Part shown: piece by piece, positions 6,335 through 14,844 of the stretch
How the letters are laid out: each line of letters begins with the position of its first letter
Position numbering within the stretch: the first letter of the stretch is position 1
Assembly: GCA_003551265.1 (NCBI GenBank)
Contig: PUMG01000207.1
Span: forward strand, 1-17,511
Direction of reading: 5' to 3'
From: Halovenus sp.
GTDB taxonomy: Archaea > Halobacteriota > Halobacteria > Halobacteriales > Haloarculaceae
DNA length: 17,511 nt
Notes under the pieces: generated by a model
Told to the model about the DNA's origin: nothing
Seen by the model: the letters and a program-made list of their open reading frames with translations, nothing else
Databases searched by the model: none
Translations under genes and position numbers: made by a program

Positions 6335-8605
6335 ATGCCCGAAGAATTAGAACGTGACCTCGGTCTCCCATCGGTCATCGCCATCAGCATGGGCGCGATG
6401 ATAGGGAGTGGCATTTTCATCCTTCCGGGCATCGCGATGCAGGAAGCGGGTCCCGCAGTCATCCTGGCGTTCGTGCTGGCAGCGGTGCTCGTCCTTCCAG
6501 CGGCACTCTCTATCGCTGAACTCGGGACGGCGATGCCCGAGGCTGGCGGGGATTACATCTTCATCGAGCGGGGGATGGGTCCCGGTGCCGGAACAATCGC
6601 CGGACTCGGGACGTGGTTGATGCTGATGTTCAAGGGGTCGCTCGCGCTGTTCGGTGGGATGTTCTACCTCGAACCCGTTCTCTCCAGTTTCGATGTGACG
6701 ATGACTCAAACCGAGCTCAGACTGCTCGCGGTCGTCATCGGTGCACTCCTGGTCGGCATCAACGTCATCGGCGTCAAACAGACTGGCGGATTACAGAAGA
6801 TACTCGTGGTGGTCATGTTGTTCATCCTCGGCGGATTCGTCGGTCTCACCGGTGGCAGCGTCGACACCGCTCTGTACGGCGGCAGTCTCGATGGGTTCTT
6901 TTCCGAAGGTTCTGTCGGCTTGTTCGCAGCGACCGCCACCGTTCTGATCTCCTACGGCGGCGTCACCAAGGTTGCCGCAGTCGCCGAAGAGATCGAAAAC
7001 CCCGGTCGCAACCTTCCACTGGGTCTGTTGTTGTCGCTGGCAATTACAGCTATACTGTATGCGCTTATCGTCGCTGTCATCGTCGGCGTCGTCGAAGAGG
7101 AGATGCTGCTGACCGACGAGTGGGAGAACGTTCCGGTCGTGGCTGTCGTCGAGGTGGTTGGGCTCGGATTCGTGATGGTCGTGCTCATCGTCGTCGCGGC
7201 GATGTTCGCACTCATCAGTACGGCGAACGCCGGCGTTCTGACGGCTTCGCGGTATCCGTTCGCACTCAGCCGTGATAACCTGCTTCCGAAGCTGTTCGGC
7301 GACGTGAACGACCGTTTCAGAACGCCCGTGACGGCGATTCTCATCACCGGTGGCGTGATGCTGTTCGTCGTCGTCGCACTGCCGGTCGAACAGATCGCAA
7401 AGACCGCCGGCGCGTTCCAGATTCTGGTGTACATACTCGTCTGTCTCTCGTTGATGGCGTTCCGTCGCCGTGACCCCGAATGGTACGAGCCCGAGTTCTA
7501 CTCGCCGCTGTACCCGTGGATACAGATTTTTGGCGTCGTCTCGGGAGTGTTCATCATCACACAGATGGACCTTCTCCCACAGGTCGGCGGTGTTGGCATC
7601 GCCATTCTCGGCGCTGTGTGGTACTACGTCTACGGCCGGCCACGCGTCGATAGAAGCGGCGTCATGGGTGAAGCACTCGTCGACATCGTCGAACCGACGC
7701 TCCCGGAAGGAGAGGAGAAACCCCACCGCATCGTCGTTCCGGTGGCCAACCCTGAAACCGACAGGGGGTTGATTCGCCTCGCCGCGGCAAAGGCTGCGAA
7801 AGAGGAACCTGCGGAGCTGGTGGCGATGAACGTCATCACTGTCCCCGACCAGACCTCACTGGCACAGGAAGTCGCCTACGAACAGGAACGAATCGAGCGC
7901 CAGCAGGAGATACTCGACGAGGCACAGGAGATCGCAGACGAACTGGGAATCGGACTGCGAACGCACGCCATTGTCGGCCGGGATGTCGGGGACACAGTCC
8001 TCGACGTGATAGAACGGGAGGACGCCGACGGCGTCGTGATGGGATGGTCCGGTGTCCGGAAACCCCGCGACCGTATCCTCGGCTCGAACATCGACAGAAT
8101 CATCGAACGCGCTCCCTGCGAGGTGTCGTTGGTCAGACCTCGAGGCGAGACCGTCGGTGACATCGTCGCGTTCGTCGACGGCGGTCAGTACTCGGAGACG
8201 GTCGTCCGGCAGGCCGCCGCGTTCGCCGAGGCCGAGAACGGTGCCACGCTCACGCTCGTCAATATCCAGACCGTCGGTGCGGATGAATCCGAGGCTGAAG
8301 CGACAGAACGGGGCCGAGCACTCATCGAGAACGTGACCACGCGCGTCGGTCTCGACGAGTATGAGTGGAATGTCGTGACTGGTGATGACGTCCAGGCGAC
8401 GCTGATCACTGTTGCCAACGAGTATGACACTGCTGTCCTCGGTCTCTCACAGCGAACGGCTCTCGAGCAGGTATTTTCGGGCTCGCTTTCGGACACTCTC
8501 GGCGAGGAGGTAGACGGAAAAGTCATTCTTGTCCGGAACGCTGATGCGACGATACAGTCGCTGCAGACTGCGATTGCACGACGGTTCCGGCGCGGTCGTC
8601 CCTGA
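6335..8605 (+). CDS. APC-superfamily amino-acid permease fused to two UspA domains
   Basis: A 756-residue paralogue of the permease at 3578-5944 with the same architecture. An APC transporter domain spans about residues 1-440 and opens with ISMGAMIGSGIFILPG; two universal stress protein domains follow at about 463-601 and 607-735. The first Usp domain keeps the glycine/serine loop GWSGVRKPRDRILGSNID. The second has a related GLSQRTALEQVFSGSLSDT. Both proteins share the stretch VPDQTSL in the first Usp domain, which shows common origin. It probably imports amino acids or related cationic or neutral solutes, with nucleotide- or stress-linked control; the substrate is not readable. The ATG at 6335 is preferred because MPEELERDLGLPSVIAIS matches the paralogue's N-terminus. 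No clear ribosome binding site precedes it; see the leader ORF at 6243-6332. Confidence 0.93.
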   Translation: MPEELERDLGLPSVIAISMGAMIGSGIFILPGIAMQEAGPAVILAFVLAAVLVLPAALSIAELGTAMPEAGGDYIFIERGMGPGAGTIAGLGTWLMLMFKGSLALFGGMFYLEPVLSSFDVTMTQTELRLLAVVIGALLVGINVIGVKQTGGLQKILVVVMLFILGGFVGLTGGSVDTALYGGSLDGFFSEGSVGLFAATATVLISYGGVTKVAAVAEEIENPGRNLPLGLLLSLAITAILYALIVAVIVGVVEEEMLLTDEWENVPVVAVVEVVGLGFVMVVLIVVAAMFALISTANAGVLTASRYPFALSRDNLLPKLFGDVNDRFRTPVTAILITGGVMLFVVVALPVEQIAKTAGAFQILVYILVCLSLMAFRRRDPEWYEPEFYSPLYPWIQIFGVVSGVFIITQMDLLPQVGGVGIAILGAVWYYVYGRPRVDRSGVMGEALVDIVEPTLPEGEEKPHRIVVPVANPETDRGLIRLAAAKAAKEEPAELVAMNVITVPDQTSLAQEVAYEQERIERQQEILDEAQEIADELGIGLRTHAIVGRDVGDTVLDVIEREDADGVVMGWSGVRKPRDRILGSNIDRIIERAPCEVSLVRPRGETVGDIVAFVDGGQYSETVVRQAAAFAEAENGATLTLVNIQTVGADESEAEATERGRALIENVTTRVGLDEYEWNVVTGDDVQATLITVANEYDTAVLGLSQRTALEQVFSGSLSDTLGEEVDGKVILVRNADATIQSLQTAIARRFRRGRP

Positions 8606-8624
8606 CACCCGCCGGTTCGAAATC

Positions 8625-8631
8625 CTTTTAC
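8625..8631 (+). promoter_or_regulatory. TATA-like promoter of rps24e-rps27ae
   Basis: CTTTTAC at 8625-8631 is centred 31 bases before the rps24e ATG, predicting a leaderless or nearly leaderless transcript for the two-gene ribosomal unit. Confidence 0.5.
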
Positions 8632-8658
8632 CTCGATTAGGTCGAGTGTAAGGTAACT

Positions 8659-8955
8659 ATGGACATCACGATACTCTCTGAAGAGGAGAACCCGATGTTG
8701 CACAGGACGGACGTTCGCTTCGAGATGACTCACGAGGAGGCGACGCCAGAGCGCCTCTCCGTGCGTGACTCGCTGGCAGCGAAGTTGAACAAAGACTCGA
8801 AAGAAGTCGTCGTCCGTGAACTCGACACAAAATTCGGCATGCGAAAGACGATGGGCAAGGCAAAAGTCTACGAATCGTCTGACATCGCACGCGACGTCGA
8901 GCAGAAGTACATGCTCGAACGCAACAAGATCGAAAGCGACGGTGAGGAGGCATAG
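8659..8955 (+). CDS. rps24e: 30S ribosomal protein S24e
   Basis: A 98-residue protein matching archaeal/eukaryotic ribosomal protein S24e, a small-subunit protein with no bacterial counterpart. It begins MDITILSEEENPMLHRTDVRFE and contains the family core LAAKLNKDSKEVVVRELDTKFG, with a variable acidic tail ending SDGEEA. Length and sequence are typical of Halobacteria. It is directly followed by rps27ae with no gap, and the pair forms an operon with a TATA-like element just upstream. Confidence 0.97.
   Translation: MDITILSEEENPMLHRTDVRFEMTHEEATPERLSVRDSLAAKLNKDSKEVVVRELDTKFGMRKTMGKAKVYESSDIARDVEQKYMLERNKIESDGEEA
8946..8950 (+). promoter_or_regulatory. Shine-Dalgarno site of rps27ae inside rps24e
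   Basis: GGAGG at 8946-8950 lies in the last codons of rps24e, 5 bases before the rps27ae ATG. It indicates independent or coupled re-initiation inside the operon. Confidence 0.7.
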
Positions 8956-9183: not shown

Positions 9184-9450
9184 ATGGGTAAGAACTCGAC
9201 CAGGACGACAACCGGGAAAGAAATCACGCTGACAGTCGACGACAGAGGGAGAGTCACGCTTCCAAAGGAGATTCGGGACCGACTCGGAATCGGCCCGGAC
9301 GACGAGATTCCCGCACGGCTGATTGGTTCCGTTTTGGAGGTCAATCCAAAGCCGAGTTCGAGGTTGCAGACGGCAACAGCTGGGCACGATTCGTGGGAGA
9401 CCCTGAGTGATGCCGGGGAAAGTCTTTTCGGCTCGATAGATGAGCAATGA
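9184..9450 (+). CDS. AbrB/MazE/SpoVT-type DNA-binding protein, putative antitoxin
   Basis: An 88-residue protein with an AbrB-like swapped-hairpin DNA-binding domain at about residues 12-55. The core is LTVDDRGRVTLPKEIRDRLGI, the family's signature, followed by GPDDEIPARLIGSVLEV. The C-terminal 30 residues, rich in small and acidic residues, would be the toxin-binding tail. It overlaps the next gene by four bases (ATGA, 9447-9450), the usual coupling in VapBC-type modules. The likely role is to neutralise the PIN protein and repress the shared promoter, including the TATA box at 9144-9151. It could also be a stand-alone transcriptional regulator; the coupling argues for an antitoxin. Confidence 0.85.
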   Translation: MGKNSTRTTTGKEITLTVDDRGRVTLPKEIRDRLGIGPDDEIPARLIGSVLEVNPKPSSRLQTATAGHDSWETLSDAGESLFGSIDEQ

Positions 9451-9932
9451 CCAGACAGGTGGACTCGCTGCCAACCGAGGTCACAGTTCTCACGGACGTC
9501 AACATCCTCGCCATTGGGCTTACTGACGACCATCCCGCACACGATGAGGTCTACCCGTGGATTGCGGATGCGCTCGATGGGCCAAATGTGTTGCTCCTGT
9601 TTGACTACTATCCTCTTCGAGCACAGTATATTATGACTCGCCAGTTTGGTGTGGAGCCGGTGGACGCCCGAAACGCGGTTCAGTCACTGGTTCAGAGTCC
9701 AGCGCGGATAATTAGCGCCACCGACGCTACGATACTTGATGCATACGAAATCAGTGCCGAAAAAAACCACGATGTATACGATTCGTTTCTTCTCTCGCTC
9801 GCACGCTCGTACGACGCGGACTATCTGCTCACTACTGATACTGACTTTGCGGAACTCTGTGAGACAGAAGAGGTGATGTATCGGAACCCGATTCCGGCGG
9901 ACAAACGTGACGTTCTGACGTTCGAACGATGA
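9447..9932 (+). CDS. PIN-domain protein, putative VapC-like ribonuclease toxin
   Basis: A 161-residue PIN-fold protein. The first metal-binding aspartate is D17 in VLTDVNILAIGL. The C-terminal acidic cluster includes D112 in HDVYDSFLLSLA and D131/D133 in LLTTDTDFAEL. PIN toxins cut tRNA or rRNA and use three or four acidic residues. The second usual acidic residue, normally a glutamate in the helix after strand two, is not evident: the corresponding stretch reads FDYYPLRAQYIMTRQFG, with an arginine where glutamate is expected. I have a vague memory of similar FDYxPLRAQ segments in other haloarchaeal PIN proteins, so this may be a subfamily trait. The ATG overlaps the AbrB-like gene's stop codon, which supports a toxin-antitoxin pair. 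Toxicity is inferred. Confidence 0.8.
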   Translation: MTRQVDSLPTEVTVLTDVNILAIGLTDDHPAHDEVYPWIADALDGPNVLLLFDYYPLRAQYIMTRQFGVEPVDARNAVQSLVQSPARIISATDATILDAYEISAEKNHDVYDSFLLSLARSYDADYLLTTDTDFAELCETEEVMYRNPIPADKRDVLTFER

Positions 9933-10091: not shown

Positions 10092-10280
10092 ATGTCCTCC
10101 AGAGCGTTGCTGACGGAGAGAGAACGCGAAGTGCTTGCGGGCCGAACCGGAAGCGATGCGTACCGGGCAACGGTGCGAAGCAGAGTGCGAAACCGGATTG
10201 ACGAACTGGATATTGACCTCGCTCTTCTCGAACGGCACGAACCGGAGCTATACCGCCGGGTCGAAGAACTCACCGAGTGA
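10092..10280 (+). CDS. Small conserved haloarchaeal protein of unknown function
   Basis: A 62-residue, highly charged, probably all-helical protein beginning MSSRALLTEREREVLAG, with repeated Arg/Glu-rich helices (RSRVRNRIDELDIDLALLER). I recall similar small proteins with a LTEREREVL start across haloarchaea, but no function is attached to them. The LTEREREVL phrase also resembles the start of LuxR-type helix-turn-helix domains (TxREREVL), though the rest does not continue as one. Its last 33 bases overlap the 3' end of truA on the opposite strand. A TATA-like GTTATTC lies about 26 bases before its ATG. Confidence 0.7.
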   Translation: MSSRALLTEREREVLAGRTGSDAYRATVRSRVRNRIDELDIDLALLERHEPELYRRVEELTE

Positions 10281-11069
10281 ACTGGCGAGTACCTCGGCGA
10301 TACGGGCACTCGTCGCCCGTTCTCTGTACATCGCACCGAATTGTTCTTGACTCCGCCGAGCGGCCTCCTGCTCGACAATAAACCGTATGTTGGGATATGA
10401 AACGCCGGTGAGCACGAGCGGAGGCGCGGGTGCTGGGCCGATTCCATCGGGTCCGGAGAGCGTTTCGGGTGAGAGAACGCGGTCAACGAACGACAGCGGG
10501 CGGGTTCCACGTGCGATATCGGAGACGAGTGTGACCGCTCGACGAACGAACTGTCGCGGAAAGCCACCTGCTCGAACGCGAATCACAAAAAACGGAGGTT
10601 CAGGTTCGAGCACCGCATCGAGCGTCCGGACGGTTCCGGTGTCGTCTGGGGTGAGGTTGTGGAAGTCATGTTCGCCAGAGAGCGCTTCGAGTGTCTGTCG
10701 TGCGAGCGTCTCCTCGGCGTCACCAGCCCACAGAAAGTACGTGTACTCGCGTTCGCTGGCCCAGTGGGTGGCGTGGAACTCCTCGGGAACCTCGGCACTC
10801 GCCCAGACACGGATCGAACCGGGGAGTTCGCTGTTGAACGCACTGGGTGTGAGCCAATCGGGCGCTTCGAAGCTGATAGTCTGGACGAGCGCGGAGACAC
10901 CGCTGTCGGTGCGTCCTGCTCCGGCGTATCCGGGAGGAGTCGTCTCGTCTGTGAGCACGTCAAGTGCTGACAGCGCGTCGAAGAGGGTGTCCTCGACAGT
11001 CGGAACGTCAGGCTGGCGCTGGAAGCCGTGGTAGGGCTGGCCGTCGTAGGCGAGTTGGTAGGCGCGCAC
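10248..11069 (-). CDS. truA: tRNA pseudouridine(38-40) synthase TruA
   Basis: A pseudouridine synthase of the TruA family, which isomerises uridines 38-40 in the tRNA anticodon arm. With the GTG start at 11069-11067 the protein has 273 residues and begins (M)RAYQLAYDGQPYHGFQRQPD, the standard haloarchaeal N-terminus. The catalytic aspartate is D55 in GYAGAGRTDSGVSA. Other family blocks are SEREYTYFLW, GEHDFHNLT and GGFPRQFVRRAVTLVSDIARG. The frame stays open to an upstream GTG at 11147 that would add 26 residues unlike the family, so the shorter start is preferred. The gene converges on the small ORF at 10092-10280 and overlaps its end by 33 bases. Confidence 0.93.
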   Translation of the reverse strand: MRAYQLAYDGQPYHGFQRQPDVPTVEDTLFDALSALDVLTDETTPPGYAGAGRTDSGVSALVQTISFEAPDWLTPSAFNSELPGSIRVWASAEVPEEFHATHWASEREYTYFLWAGDAEETLARQTLEALSGEHDFHNLTPDDTGTVRTLDAVLEPEPPFFVIRVRAGGFPRQFVRRAVTLVSDIARGTRPLSFVDRVLSPETLSGPDGIGPAPAPPLVLTGVSYPNIRFIVEQEAARRSQEQFGAMYRERATSARIAEVLASSLGEFFDPAV

Positions 11070-11147
11070 GGACTGGGATACGAGTGCGAAACTGGTGACT
11101 GTGTCGCTCTGGAGAGTCCCATTTCCGAGAAAGACTTTTGTTTTCAC

Positions 11148-11294
11148 TCGCTCTGTACTCTGTAATTAGAGGGAACATTGTCCGTCATCATCGAGTTCTC
11201 GCTGCACATTGTGGCGGGAATCTCTGAACAGGTCCACTACTCCCTCTCAGTTGGGTCGGTTCGACGACCAGGTTGATGCAAGGAGGGTGCCGCC
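11148..11294. other. Divergent promoter region between truA and the S74 adhesin gene
   Basis: The 147 bases from the longest possible truA frame to the adhesin ATG hold a TAATTAGAG block (11162-11170) that could serve as a TATA element for either direction. An imperfect hairpin lies around 11257-11273 (GGTCG ... CGACGACC). No tnpB or transposon left end is recognisable. The assignments are weak. Confidence 0.3.
11281..11287 (+). promoter_or_regulatory. Strong Shine-Dalgarno site of the S74 adhesin gene
   Basis: AGGAGGG at 11281-11287 sits 7 bases before the ATG at 11295. It fixes the start and indicates a leadered, efficiently translated mRNA, unlike most neighbours. Confidence 0.75.
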
Positions 11295-12680
11295 ATGACA
11301 GACGACACACAAACTGACAGCTCGACGAACAGTACAGCAACGCAATCAGCTTCGACCGTCTCACGACGTGGGACGCTGGCCACACTTGCCGGGCTCGGCG
11401 CGCTCGCCATCGGGGGTGGAACGGGAACGGCGTCGGCCAGATACGCCCAGGCACCAGAGCGCGTCAACCTCGGTGAGGAGACTATCGAGGTGGATGGAGA
11501 GACGGTGTTCCGCCTCACCGGCCCACAGTCGTTCGTTCGTGACGACGACGCCGAAATACGCGATGGGGGAACAGTGCGTGCGGGAAGCCTCAACGAAGTT
11601 GTCGACGGGGTCGTCGGCGGAGCAATCGGCGGCGGTGGTTTCTTCCGAAAAGACACGGAGAACACCGAAGCGAACGTCGTTACCTCACACTTCGGAACCG
11701 TCGGCGGGGGTGCCGGAAATCAGGCGGGAACTGACAGTGACGACCCGGAAGAGGGCCAACTCGCTGCCGTTGGGGGCGGTCTCAGAAACACCGCAAACGG
11801 TGCCGTGTCAGTTGTCAGTGGTGGGACAGGAAACGACGCCCTGGGACCACGATCAGTTGTCGCCGGGGGTGCGAACAACGATGCGACCGAGGCATTTACC
11901 AGCGTTGGCGGCGGTGTCGGAAACCGCGCGAGCAACAGCTATGCGACGGTCACCGGCGGCACGGGCAACGTCGCGCGTGGCTCCAGTTCGACTGTCGTCG
12001 GTGGGCGAGTGAACATCGCCCGCGCTCAACACAGCACCGTCGTCGGTGGTCGTGGAAACTTCGCAGACGGTCGTGGGTCGACTGTCGGGGGCGGCGTCGA
12101 CAACGACGCAACAGCAGCGGGTGCGTTCGTCGCTGGCGGAACCGATAACACCGCAGACGGCGAGTTCTCCTTCGCGGCCGGACGTGGAGCCGAAACCAAC
12201 GGCCACGATGGGTCTGTCGTCTTCGGCGACTCCTCGACAGACCGAATCCGTGCGGAGAGCGACAACACCGCGTACTTCCAGATGCCCGTCACCGCTCAGT
12301 CTTTCGACAACGAGAGTTCGCGGGCGCACAAACGGGATGTCGAGCAGGTGGACCCCGAGTCTGTACTCGACGGCGTCGAATCACTCGATATCACCCGATG
12401 GCGGTACGAACGCAACGACGACAGCACCCACATGGGTCCGACAGCCGAAGACTTCCACGAGGCGTTCGATCTCGGCGACGAGCGGACTATCTCGACGGTC
12501 GACGCCGACGGCGTTGCGCTTGCGGCTATCAAGGCGCTCTCGAACCGACTCGACGAAAGAGACGAACAACTCGGCGAGAGAGACGACCAGATCGCTGCAC
12601 TCGAAGAAGCGAACGAGCGAAAAGAAGCGCGCATCGACGATCTGGAATCGCGCCTCTCAGCGCTCGAAGAGCAGCTTTAG
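11295..12680 (+). CDS. Tat-exported protein with YadA-head-like repeats and C-terminal S74 intramolecular chaperone
   Basis: A 461-residue secreted protein with four parts. (1) Residues 1-48 form a twin-arginine signal peptide: SRRGTLATLAGLGALAIGG, with R24-R25 and a likely cut after ASA at residue 48. (2) Residues 49-135 form an unassigned domain rich in beta-type sequence. (3) Residues 136-310 form a beta-solenoid-like head with nine exact-length 15-residue repeats (159-293) of the form VxGGxxNxAxxxxST, as in trimeric YadA-type heads. (4) Residues 335-461 form a peptidase S74 / endosialidase chaperone domain, with S341 and K346 (SSRAHK) at the spacing of the self-cleavage dyad, then HMGPTAEDFHEAF and VDADGVALAAIKAL, and a coiled coil at about 414-461. 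S74 domains trimerise phage tail fibres and then cut themselves off. No membrane anchor or archaeosortase motif follows. The inferred product is a released, trimeric surface or extracellular fibre; its ligand is unknown. Confidence 0.88.
   Translation: MTDDTQTDSSTNSTATQSASTVSRRGTLATLAGLGALAIGGGTGTASARYAQAPERVNLGEETIEVDGETVFRLTGPQSFVRDDDAEIRDGGTVRAGSLNEVVDGVVGGAIGGGGFFRKDTENTEANVVTSHFGTVGGGAGNQAGTDSDDPEEGQLAAVGGGLRNTANGAVSVVSGGTGNDALGPRSVVAGGANNDATEAFTSVGGGVGNRASNSYATVTGGTGNVARGSSSTVVGGRVNIARAQHSTVVGGRGNFADGRGSTVGGGVDNDATAAGAFVAGGTDNTADGEFSFAAGRGAETNGHDGSVVFGDSSTDRIRAESDNTAYFQMPVTAQSFDNESSRAHKRDVEQVDPESVLDGVESLDITRWRYERNDDSTHMGPTAEDFHEAFDLGDERTISTVDADGVALAAIKALSNRLDERDEQLGERDDQIAALEEANERKEARIDDLESRLSALEEQL
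11769..12173 (+). repeat. Nine tandem 45-base (15-codon) coding repeats
   Basis: The stretch encodes nine consecutive units of exactly 15 residues (158 residues into the protein), each starting V-x-G-G with an Asn at position 7 and usually Ala at position 9. The units differ in DNA sequence, so they are old protein-level repeats, not recent DNA duplications. A degenerate unit with an insertion precedes them and a broken one follows. Confidence 0.9.
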
Positions 12681-12684
12681 CTGA

Positions 12685-12749
12685 ATGCAGGCGCTAAGCC
12701 CCTGCCTCAAGGAGCCGCCAACGGCGGCAGGTAGGCAGGGGTAGTTCAC
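12685..12749 (+). mobile_element. Right-end relic of an IS200/IS605 (IS1341-type) element: orphan TnpB omega-RNA end
   Basis: Five bases after the adhesin stop codon comes a segment with a compound hairpin. The outer stem is CCCCTGCCT (12699-12707) pairing perfectly with AGGCAGGGG (12733-12741). The inner stem is GCCGCC (12714-12719) with GGCGGC (12723-12728) closed by AAC. It ends TAGTTCAC at 12742-12749. An AAGCCCC-hairpin-GGGGTAGTTCAC end is, from memory, the right end of haloarchaeal TnpB-carrying elements; in active elements it forms the 3' part of the omega-RNA whose guide lies just outside. No tnpB or tnpA remains in this window. The sequence after the end (from 12750) is the 3' end of the next gene, so any guide would read into that gene. 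It may now also act as a terminator between the two convergent genes. Confidence 0.7.
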
Positions 12750-13163
12750 TTAGGTGTCGTCGTCACACGGCCAGGCCAGCGATTCGACGTGGAGAGACCC
12801 ACTGAGATAGAAGTTCAGGTACAAACACTCTTCGTCGGGAGTGACGAGGTCGCTGGTATCTGTGTGGCTCTCGTGGCCGTCGACTTCGACTGTCACCTCG
12901 TACTCGCCCGGTCCCGAGACTGGCTCTTCGTAGAGGATGACGCCCTCAGTCGGGTCGGCCACGAGTTCTTCACTTGCTTCGAACACTGTCTCGCCGCTCT
13001 CTTCGATTCGGATATCGAACTCGGAGGGGCTGTCGTGGCGGTGATTCTCGACTTCCAGAAACGCTATCTGTGGGTCGGGCTCTGTCTCTTGGGTATCGAG
13101 ACAGCCCGAGAACACCGCTGTTACCATCGAAGCAATGGCTGTCATATACGTCCGTCTGTCCAT
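12750..13163 (-). CDS. Small secreted lipoprotein of unknown function
   Basis: A 137-residue protein with an archaeal lipoprotein signal: MDRRTYMTAIASMVTAVFSGCLD, with an RR near the N-terminus (Tat-like) and the lipobox VFSGC at residues 16-20, so C20 would be lipid-modified. The mature part looks like a small immunoglobulin-like beta domain (IAFLEVENHRHDSPSEFDIR, GEYEVTVEVDGHESHT), often seen in haloarchaeal cell-surface proteins; no named family is recognised. The ATG at 13163 is chosen because the signal peptide begins there; the frame extends upstream to 13265 with non-signal-like residues. A TATA-like TTATTCT (13202-13196) is about 36 bases upstream. The stop codon begins directly at the edge of the transposon-end relic. 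It converges with the adhesin gene; a shared role is speculative. Confidence 0.8.
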   Translation of the reverse strand: MDRRTYMTAIASMVTAVFSGCLDTQETEPDPQIAFLEVENHRHDSPSEFDIRIEESGETVFEASEELVADPTEGVILYEEPVSGPGEYEVTVEVDGHESHTDTSDLVTPDEECLYLNFYLSGSLHVESLAWPCDDDT

Positions 13164-13287
13164 TGGAAGGGTCCATCCGAGATTGCTGGCTCGAGAGAAT
13201 AACTGTTCTGATACACACGAACGTCGGTACAGCGGAACAACCAGGGCTGCGCAACGGTGTTTCATATCCGGCTATATTGGGTTGAGG

Positions 13288-14844
13288 TCAGCCGAGCAAC
13301 ATTTCGCCGGTCATCTGGTCGGGCTGTGAAATGGAGAGCAGTTCCAACACCGTTGGTGCGATATCTGCGAGTGTGCCGCCATCCCTGACAGTACGACCTC
13401 CGTCGTTGTCGTCGGGTGAGAGGTAGACGAACGGAACCGGGTTGGTGGTGTGTGCCGTGTGAGGCGCTTCTGAGGTCCCCATGTCCTCAGCGTTCCCGTG
13501 GTCTGCGGTGACGATGACGTGTGCACCTGCTGCCTGCATCGCTCGCCTCAGCCGGGCCAGTTGCTCGTCGACGGCCTCGATGGCGCTCACTGCTGCGTCG
13601 AAGTCGCCTGTATGGCCGACCATGTCGGGGTTGGCGTAGTTGAGAACGACCACATCTGGGTCGTCGGTTTCGAGTATTTCGATTGCGCTGTCGGTCAACT
13701 CCGGCGCACTCATCGCTGGCTGCTGGTCGTAGGTCGGGACAGCGGGACTCGGGACAATCTCGCGGCGTTCGCCCTCGAAGGCCACCTCACGTCCACCGTT
13801 GAGGAAGTAGGTAACGTGGCCGTACTTCTCTGTCTCGGCGATTCTGAGCTGTGTGTGGCCGGTGTCGGCGAGCACCTCTCCGAGCGTGTTCCGGGGTCGA
13901 TTCGGTGGGAACGCAACGGGCAAGTCGAACGTCTCGTCGTATGCGGTCATGGTCACGAGATGAGTGTCGGGCGGGTCTGTCTCGAACGACCACACGGGTT
14001 CGATGTCTGCGAGCAGCCGTATCAACTGCCGTGCGCGGTCGGCCCGGAAGTTGACGAAGATGACGCTGTCACCATCTTCAAGGGCTGGTCTGCCAGCGAT
14101 GACCGTCGGTTCGACGAACTCGTCGGTTACGTCGCGGTCGTAGGATGCACCGACGGCCGCCACTGCCGAGGAGGCGGTGTGTGCTGCCTCGTGGTTGACA
14201 ATCGCGTCGTATGCCCGCTTCGTTCGTTCCCAGTTCTCGTCGCGGTCCATCGCGTAGTACCGGCCACACACTGTCGCCACGTGGCCCGTTCCGTATGTTT
14301 CAGTGATTCGTTCGAGTTCTCGAAGATACTCCAGCCCACCAGTGGGGGATGTATCTCGCCCGTCGGTGAAGGCGTGGGTGACTGCCTCGGTACCGCGTTC
14401 GGCGGCGAGTTCGACGAGCGCGTGCAGGTGTGACTGGTACGAGTGGACGCCGCCGTCGCTGACGAGACCAAGCAGATGAACTCGTCCACCCTGTTCACTC
14501 GCGTATTCAAACGCCGACTCGATGGCGGGATTTTTGGATAGCGCCGGGTCGGCCGGCTCCTCGAACGCGCTCTGGTCCCCGTGCCAGCGAGCAATCGCGT
14601 CGGTAATCCGGGCAGACGCCTGTGTGACCACGCGACCTGCCCCGATGTTGAGGTGGCCGACCTCGCTGTTTCCCATCTGTCCGTCCGGGAGACCAACGCG
14701 GCGGCCGTGGGTTTCGAGCGTTCCGAACGCGCCACGCTCGCGAACTTCGTCGAACGTTGGCGTGTCGGCCGCAGCGACCGCGTCACGAGCGTCCGGGTCC
14801 GGGTTCAGCCCCCAGCCGTCGAGAATCACGAGTCCGACTTCCAT
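13288..14844 (-). CDS. gpmI: 2,3-bisphosphoglycerate-independent phosphoglycerate mutase
   Basis: A 518-residue cofactor-independent phosphoglycerate mutase (alkaline phosphatase superfamily) that interconverts 3- and 2-phosphoglycerate in glycolysis and gluconeogenesis. It starts MEVGLVILDGWGLNPD, with the first metal-binding aspartate at D9. The phosphorylated serine is S60 in QMGNSEVGHLNIGAGR. Later blocks are HAFTDGRDTSP, VNFRADRARQ, NYANPDMVGHTGD, VTADHGNAEDM and HTTNPVPFVY, covering the metal-binding Asp/His residues. Length matches the bacterial-type (iPGM) form rather than the shorter archaeal apgM. The ATG at 14844 gives the exact family N-terminus. It is divergent from rps6e. Confidence 0.97.
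   Translation of the reverse strand: MEVGLVILDGWGLNPDPDARDAVAAADTPTFDEVRERGAFGTLETHGRRVGLPDGQMGNSEVGHLNIGAGRVVTQASARITDAIARWHGDQSAFEEPADPALSKNPAIESAFEYASEQGGRVHLLGLVSDGGVHSYQSHLHALVELAAERGTEAVTHAFTDGRDTSPTGGLEYLRELERITETYGTGHVATVCGRYYAMDRDENWERTKRAYDAIVNHEAAHTASSAVAAVGASYDRDVTDEFVEPTVIAGRPALEDGDSVIFVNFRADRARQLIRLLADIEPVWSFETDPPDTHLVTMTAYDETFDLPVAFPPNRPRNTLGEVLADTGHTQLRIAETEKYGHVTYFLNGGREVAFEGERREIVPSPAVPTYDQQPAMSAPELTDSAIEILETDDPDVVVLNYANPDMVGHTGDFDAAVSAIEAVDEQLARLRRAMQAAGAHVIVTADHGNAEDMGTSEAPHTAHTTNPVPFVYLSPDDNDGGRTVRDGGTLADIAPTVLELLSISQPDQMTGEMLLG

Follow-up and report, generated by a model that had tools for sequence, protein, structure and literature searches.

How could a halophilic archaeon assemble a trimeric fibre with the help of a self-cleaving chaperone and deliver it outside the cell? 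The question is raised by a gene of Halovenus sp. (contig PUMG01000207.1), located at 11295..12680 on the forward strand of the 17,511-nucleotide stretch of DNA analysed here, hereafter the window. The gene is an uninterrupted frame of 461 amino acids, with a Shine-Dalgarno-like AAGGAGG (11280..11286, +) read directly in the sequence 8 nt upstream of the ATG. Its product, which an earlier note on this DNA had described as an archaeal trimeric fibre, consists of a twin-arginine translocation (Tat) signal (residues 1–48), a cap (49–135), a head (136–300), a stub (301–340), and an S74 chaperone with a terminal helix (341–461). We consider it probably a secreted, adhesin-like trimeric fibre precursor that is cut by its own S74 domain and exported by the Tat route.

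Architecture of the fibre protein

The S74 intramolecular chaperone/peptidase domain was placed at residues 341–400 (12315..12494, +) by Pfam, by the structural model and by matches to solved structures. PF13884 (Peptidase_S74) matched residues 341–391 with an E-value of 9e-8 (32.7 bits vs. a curated cut-off of 22) and, in the family alignment A1, matched 19 of the 20 rows. The domain was modelled with a mean predicted local distance difference test score (pLDDT) of 92.1 and matched four solved S74 structures, the nearest solved fold being the ICA domain of MyRF. These data agree with the S74 fold that the earlier note had expected around residues 335–461. In the model, the S74 fold is followed by a single helix at residues 401–460 (12495..12677, +), coiled-coil-like and presumably the trimerising stem. 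Seven of 20 close family members (P0012, P0013, P0014, P0017, P0018, P0019, and P0020) have QASP as their last residues, and several signal-less relatives end in ADD. The extreme C-terminus is thus conserved, although it lies on the part expected to be shed.

Residue S341 (12315..12317, +) is the predicted nucleophile and would be the first residue of the shed chaperone; K346 (12330..12332, +) is the predicted general base of the Ser-Lys dyad. The homologue search scored 7996 candidates, of which 2358 passed an E-value of 0.001 and the best 120 were listed; the window protein was aligned with 74 of the 119 other listed homologues. Serine occupied position 341 in 74 and lysine position 346 in all of these 75 sequences, which upholds the catalytic pair named in the earlier note, while residues 342, 344, 345, 347, and 348 were variable and the median column maximum over 330–420 was 44/75. 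S341 is in register with S911 of endoNF and S1264 of T5, provided that the alignment has no local gap, and K346 with K916 of endoNF, just beyond the aligned range. The strict S-x4-K-before-HxG pattern was present in 113 of 119 S74 segments, and among the six misses, L135 and L071 at least visibly carry S-x4-K. The downstream blocks HMGPTAEDF and VDADGVALAAIKAL start at residues 379 and 402, respectively; like the dyad, both are where they had been reported. In T5, the catalytic site also includes Arg1250 and Asp1239 of the neighbouring chain (PMC4690869; this and the other papers cited here are represented by excerpts). Inspection by eye spotted no counterpart of them upstream of S341; for MyRF, aromatic residues near the centre are named instead of Arg/Asp (PMC8326128). 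The dyad residues are present in the window protein, and their cleavage chemistry would be that of known S74 proteins.

The head (residues 136–300; 11700..12194, +) is of the YadA/UspA1 type, with short regular repeats and a left-handed beta-roll fold. Self-identity reached 0.319 at a lag of 15 residues and 0.318 at one of 30, while shuffled sequences did not exceed 0.21 (lags 5–44, n = 2000). The 15-residue period of the earlier note is therefore well above shuffles, but its count of nine repeats is only close, since the motif [VIAF].GG..N occurs 10 times. The YadA-like character of the head was supported by three comparisons: a single-sequence search of PDB sequences matched UspA1 (3pr7) at an E-value of 1.5e-19, the 20-row family profile matched it at 2.7e-36, and UspA1 was also the top structural match. 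Ahead of the head, the mature fibre starts with a beta-rich cap (residues 49–135; 11439..11699, +), defined by alignment A1 and the model. Model pLDDT was 94–98 per block from residue 61 on and below 50 in the signal region (residues 6–53). A beta stub (residues 301–340; 12195..12314, +) sits between the head and S74 matches; by analogy with T5 and MAT fibres, it would become the exposed tip once the chaperone is cut off.

The Tat signal peptide (residues 1–48; 11295..11438, +) has SRR at 23–25, a hydrophobic stretch and a predicted cut ASA|R after residue 48. The SRR motif is invariant in all 20 rows of A1, and the host genome carries tatC (three domain matches in two frames). Since the signal peptide is of the SRRx kind and the host has a Tat translocase, the protein is a predicted Tat substrate, as had been proposed. 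The coupling to Tat had been called striking; it is rather to be expected, since Tat is the predominant secretion route of halophilic archaea and transports proteins in the folded state (PMC2910488, PMC12186497).

Proposed folding, self-cleavage, and export

S74 domains aid trimer folding and cut at the serine once the trimer is correct, as described for T5 (PMC4690869), MyRF (PMC8326128), and Bd3182 (PMC10769870). In the window protein, the C-terminal coiled coil and the S74 domain would gather three chains in the cytoplasm and template the folding of the beta-roll head. Once the trimer has reached its correct fold, K346 would activate S341, which would cut between residues 340 and 341 and shed a 121-residue chaperone. 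The folded product with its three Tat signals would then be exported by the Tat translocase, and the signal removed after residue 48. The head (49–340) would end outside the cell, free or surface-bound, where its type suggests that it may act in attachment.

Given that cleavage happens, the order we prefer is folding, cutting, and then export with the chaperone left inside, and we hold it with about even confidence. For Tat substrates, folding takes place inside, and folding is what triggers the S74 cut, so the cut would most likely precede export. Bacterial relatives with Sec-type leaders would need to fold and cut outside; therefore, the chaperone would work on either side of the membrane. 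We also propose, tentatively and as a rather doubtful extension, that in haloarchaea the S74 self-cut and Tat export are linked into a folding checkpoint, in which the translocase takes only the finished cut trimer, its three Tat signals side by side, and the spent chaperone stays behind. With such a checkpoint, the N-terminal coiled coil found before the Tat motif in some relatives would bundle three signals from the start.

A coiled-coil-like n-region was clear in six relatives (L126, L129, L140, L142, L144, and L149; at most 15 of 5000 shuffles) among the 19 n-regions tested, those of the window protein and 18 relatives (one is truncated where its locus ends). The long stretch before the twin arginine in these six is a possible cytoplasmic oligomerising stem ahead of the signal peptide. 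Of the six, L126 and L129 alone had S74 within that frame. No N-terminal coiled coil was found by this test in the window protein (1431 of 5000 shuffles) or in the 12 other relatives (131 or more). As a family rule, it was rejected, with 6 of 19 n-regions only, and is kept as a lead. One Ser-dependent size shift would be a simple readout of whether the Tat machinery can transport an obligate homotrimer that is already assembled, and of whether the trimer-dependent self-cut comes before or after the membrane.

The S74 domain could instead be a trimerising cap only, which stays attached so that the whole of residues 49–461 is exported and works uncut. The one long C-terminal helix is as expected of a structural part, and this stretch is the best conserved in the comparison with the nearest relative, P0002 (94.4% over 54 columns). 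The dyad, however, is kept while its neighbours vary, which argues for more than a pure cap, as a cap would not need Ser or Lys. We regard an uncut fibre as unlikely.

A further reading concerns the N-terminus: the signal peptide could remain uncleaved as a Tat signal anchor holding the trimer at the membrane, and the tip would be exposed by the cut at 340|341. The earlier note had seen no membrane anchor. No membrane stretch was recognised at the C-terminus by sequence, and no membrane-anchor family was among the eight Pfam matches up to an E-value of 10; the C-terminus is S74 and helix, without the C-terminal membrane-anchor barrel of type Vc trimeric autotransporters. The protein has no cysteine and thus no lipobox. 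The claim stands for these anchors, but not for a signal anchor: a strict scan found no AxA site close to where the hydrophobic stretch ends in at least three (P0009, P0018, and P0020) of the 20 family members, so that a retained anchor is conceivable. For MAT fibres, the N-terminal domain is believed to be seated on the cell surface, with the variable tip pointing away from it (PMC10769870). Against this, the window protein has a clear ASA|R site, and the scan was strict enough to miss P0007 and P0008, whose AAA/ATA sit 1–2 residues before the scanned range. A retained anchor is accordingly improbable for the window protein.

Relatives and known systems

Judged by its sequence matches, the window protein belongs to a patchy but sizeable family. 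PF13884 was found in 8 of 59 genomes, host included, and in 4 of 18 genomes of the same genus. At 1e-15, the family profile had matches in 25 of the 292 genomes of the class, host counted, with only five candidates scored per genome and some matches covering the head only; the family is therefore patchy. Among 79 named loci, bacterial homologues came from Chloroflexi, Verrucomicrobia, Planctomycetes, Proteobacteria, and others with the same order of parts, and the combination of head and S74 is, by homology, widespread in bacteria. In many of them (P0031, P0033, P0036, P0048, P0057, and others), a hydrophobic membrane-like stretch was seen by eye after S74; self-cleavage would detach the fibre from an anchor of this kind, much as it does MyRF.

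Of 169 S74 domain hits in the retrieved loci, 119 were kept; the other 50 were excluded on grounds of length, coverage, unknown residues or identity. The S74 tree was built by a quick method (138 segments, 131 columns; 58 of 135 inner branches were unresolved). All but one of the 57 archaeal rows fell to the same side of a branch with a Shimodaira-Hasegawa-like approximate likelihood ratio test (SH-aLRT) value of 95; the exception, L130 on a long branch, fell among bacteria. On the archaeal side, the Tat label needs 12 changes, and well-supported branches require at least five of them, so gains, losses or swaps of export signals have occurred repeatedly. The 44 archaeal frames, labelled by rule, comprised 16 with Tat signals (one gene counted twice, L133/L148), seven with an NHxYNVP start and no signal, four with carboxypeptidase-regulatory-like N-termini, and 17 unclassified or fragments, the latter at locus ends. 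The tree suggests that one head and chaperone scaffold was moved between exported and non-exported N-termini in archaea. In Halalkaliarchaeum sp. AArc-CO, a Tat-type relative (WP_259532799.1; Tat motif, head, and S74) is located on a plasmid and adjoins a transposase gene. Genome G032 has two near-alike fibre genes far apart (L097 8261-10087 and L098 8427-10249), one a single frame and the other split over two.

The S74 group of Bdellovibrio MAT fibres, e.g., Bd3182, is alike in being cell-encoded, with a signal peptide, a trimeric beta fibre and an S74 end, and self-cleavage at Ser was demonstrated for Bd3182 (PMC10769870). These fibres differ in being bacterial, typically ~1000 aa long, with their own conserved N-terminal beta domain of ~130 aa behind the signal peptide and a triple beta-helix tip; the excerpted text does not contain the word YadA (PMC10769870). 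The bacterial surface proteins annotated as tail fiber domain-containing (Chloroflexi, Verrucomicrobia, and others) have the same order of cap, head, and S74, with BLASTP matches covering mostly about 70–80% of the query, but differ, as judged by eye, in mostly having Sec-type leaders and in many cases a hydrophobic stretch after S74. Phage S74 fibres (the T5 L-shaped fibre pb1, K1F endosialidase, and the GA-1/phi29 appendage) share the C-terminal chaperone with a coiled-coil stem and the Ser-x4-Lys dyad, apparently in register. They are virion proteins that remain in the host cytoplasm until lysis, and their body is for the most part of another kind than the UspA1-type beta-roll. Trimeric autotransporter adhesins (UspA1, YadA, and BpaC heads) share the left-handed beta-roll head and are anchored by a C-terminal outer-membrane barrel, whereas the C-terminus of the archaeal fibre is predicted to be a cleavable chaperone. 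The ICA of MyRF, an animal membrane transcription factor, has the same Ser-Lys dyad but is released from the endoplasmic reticulum membrane and has no beta-roll head. The head, the S74 chaperone and the Tat signal are thus each known, and their combination seems unstudied in archaea: the literature searched on S74 chaperones, trimeric adhesins, and archaea, as excerpted, held no characterised archaeal S74 or YadA-type fibre, in line with the earlier note. Within that literature, the window protein is a candidate for the first archaeal cell-surface S74 fibre to be studied.

A tail-tube gene like T4 gp19 lies beside or near the S74 fibre gene in several haloarchaea (PF06841 at 6.1e-29 in L072, the others by similarity to L072). 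The gene pairs are at 9196-9642 and 9656-10504 in L072, 1937-2359 and 192-1184 in L045, and 8336-8776 and 8790-9608 in L096; a further case is L137/L159. The fibre genes in L072, L137, and L045 are signal-less relatives of the archaeal branch, while that just downstream of the tube gene in L096/L074 (the same record) is of the Tat type. A tube and a fibre without Baseplate_J, in those genomes searched, is an odd set.

Such pairs, with S74 being known in fibres of extracellular contractile injection systems (eCIS; PMC8213781, PMC12923769), would fit a fibre that is, or once was, a component of a virus-like or eCIS particle, the Tat signal being secondary. Contractile-tail genes, searched for as Baseplate_J and gp19, were lacking from the host assembly (88% complete). 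Baseplate_J (PF04865) gave no match in 18 entries including the host, some of which look like one genome under two handles (e.g., G007/G065 and G049/G068); gp19 (PF06841) was present in 8 of 24 entries, not in the host. An eCIS fibre identity was rejected on these grounds. None of the ten window proteins scanned was a phage protein. Against 50,697 phage records, only the S74 part (337–429) matched, in eight records, all of bacterial phages; nine IMG/VR contigs matched the signal, cap, head or stub ranges at 30–41% identity and none reached S74. A viral origin of the whole protein was rejected, because IMG/VR matches stop short of S74 and phage records match S74 alone. In BFVD, the 26 fold matches at an E-value of 0.001 or better were giant-virus or phage head and S74 proteins, mostly with a large root-mean-square deviation. 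As a Tat signal is, in addition, of no obvious use to particle fibres, a particle part is the least probable reading and very unlikely.

The locus and its neighbours

The fibre gene and a convergent lipoprotein gene form a 2.1-kb islet (11148..13287) between truA (10248-11147, −) and a gene that we take to be gpmI (13288-14844, −). Among 15 other genomes of the genus with truA, a gpmI match lay −7 to 594 nt from truA in nine and was not within the 1.2–1.5 kb examined on that side of truA in the remaining six. It is this proximity elsewhere in the genus that marks the two genes as an islet, which was probably acquired. A search for transposition repeats around it found only short chance-like pairs.

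The neighbour (12750..13163, −) is a small Tat lipoprotein with RR followed by an FSGC lipobox and had no Pfam match at 0.01. Relatives were found in 39 of 194 genomes, its own included. As the missing anchor partner, it was rejected: it is of a general family, and no relative was near any fibre in the loci examined. The best other match in the fibre loci had an E-value of 0.057 and came from a bacterial locus; in the three other genomes with both fibre-family and lipoprotein matches (G058, G101, and G211), the two are at distant coordinates. A small Tat lipoprotein-like gene immediately precedes a signal-less S74 fibre gene in L008 (9227-9685) and in L059 (9083-9670); its product might serve as carrier or anchor of the fibre.

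The other scanned window genes are ordinary chromosomal ones: a CetZ pair, S24e, S6e, truA, a DUF7112 protein, and a DUF2298 protein. The window presumably also encodes two transporters, a protease, and an isomerase. At 9184-9932, a MazE/AbrB-like antitoxin gene and a PIN-domain gene, together of the toxin-antitoxin type, adjoin the gene of ribosomal protein S24e.
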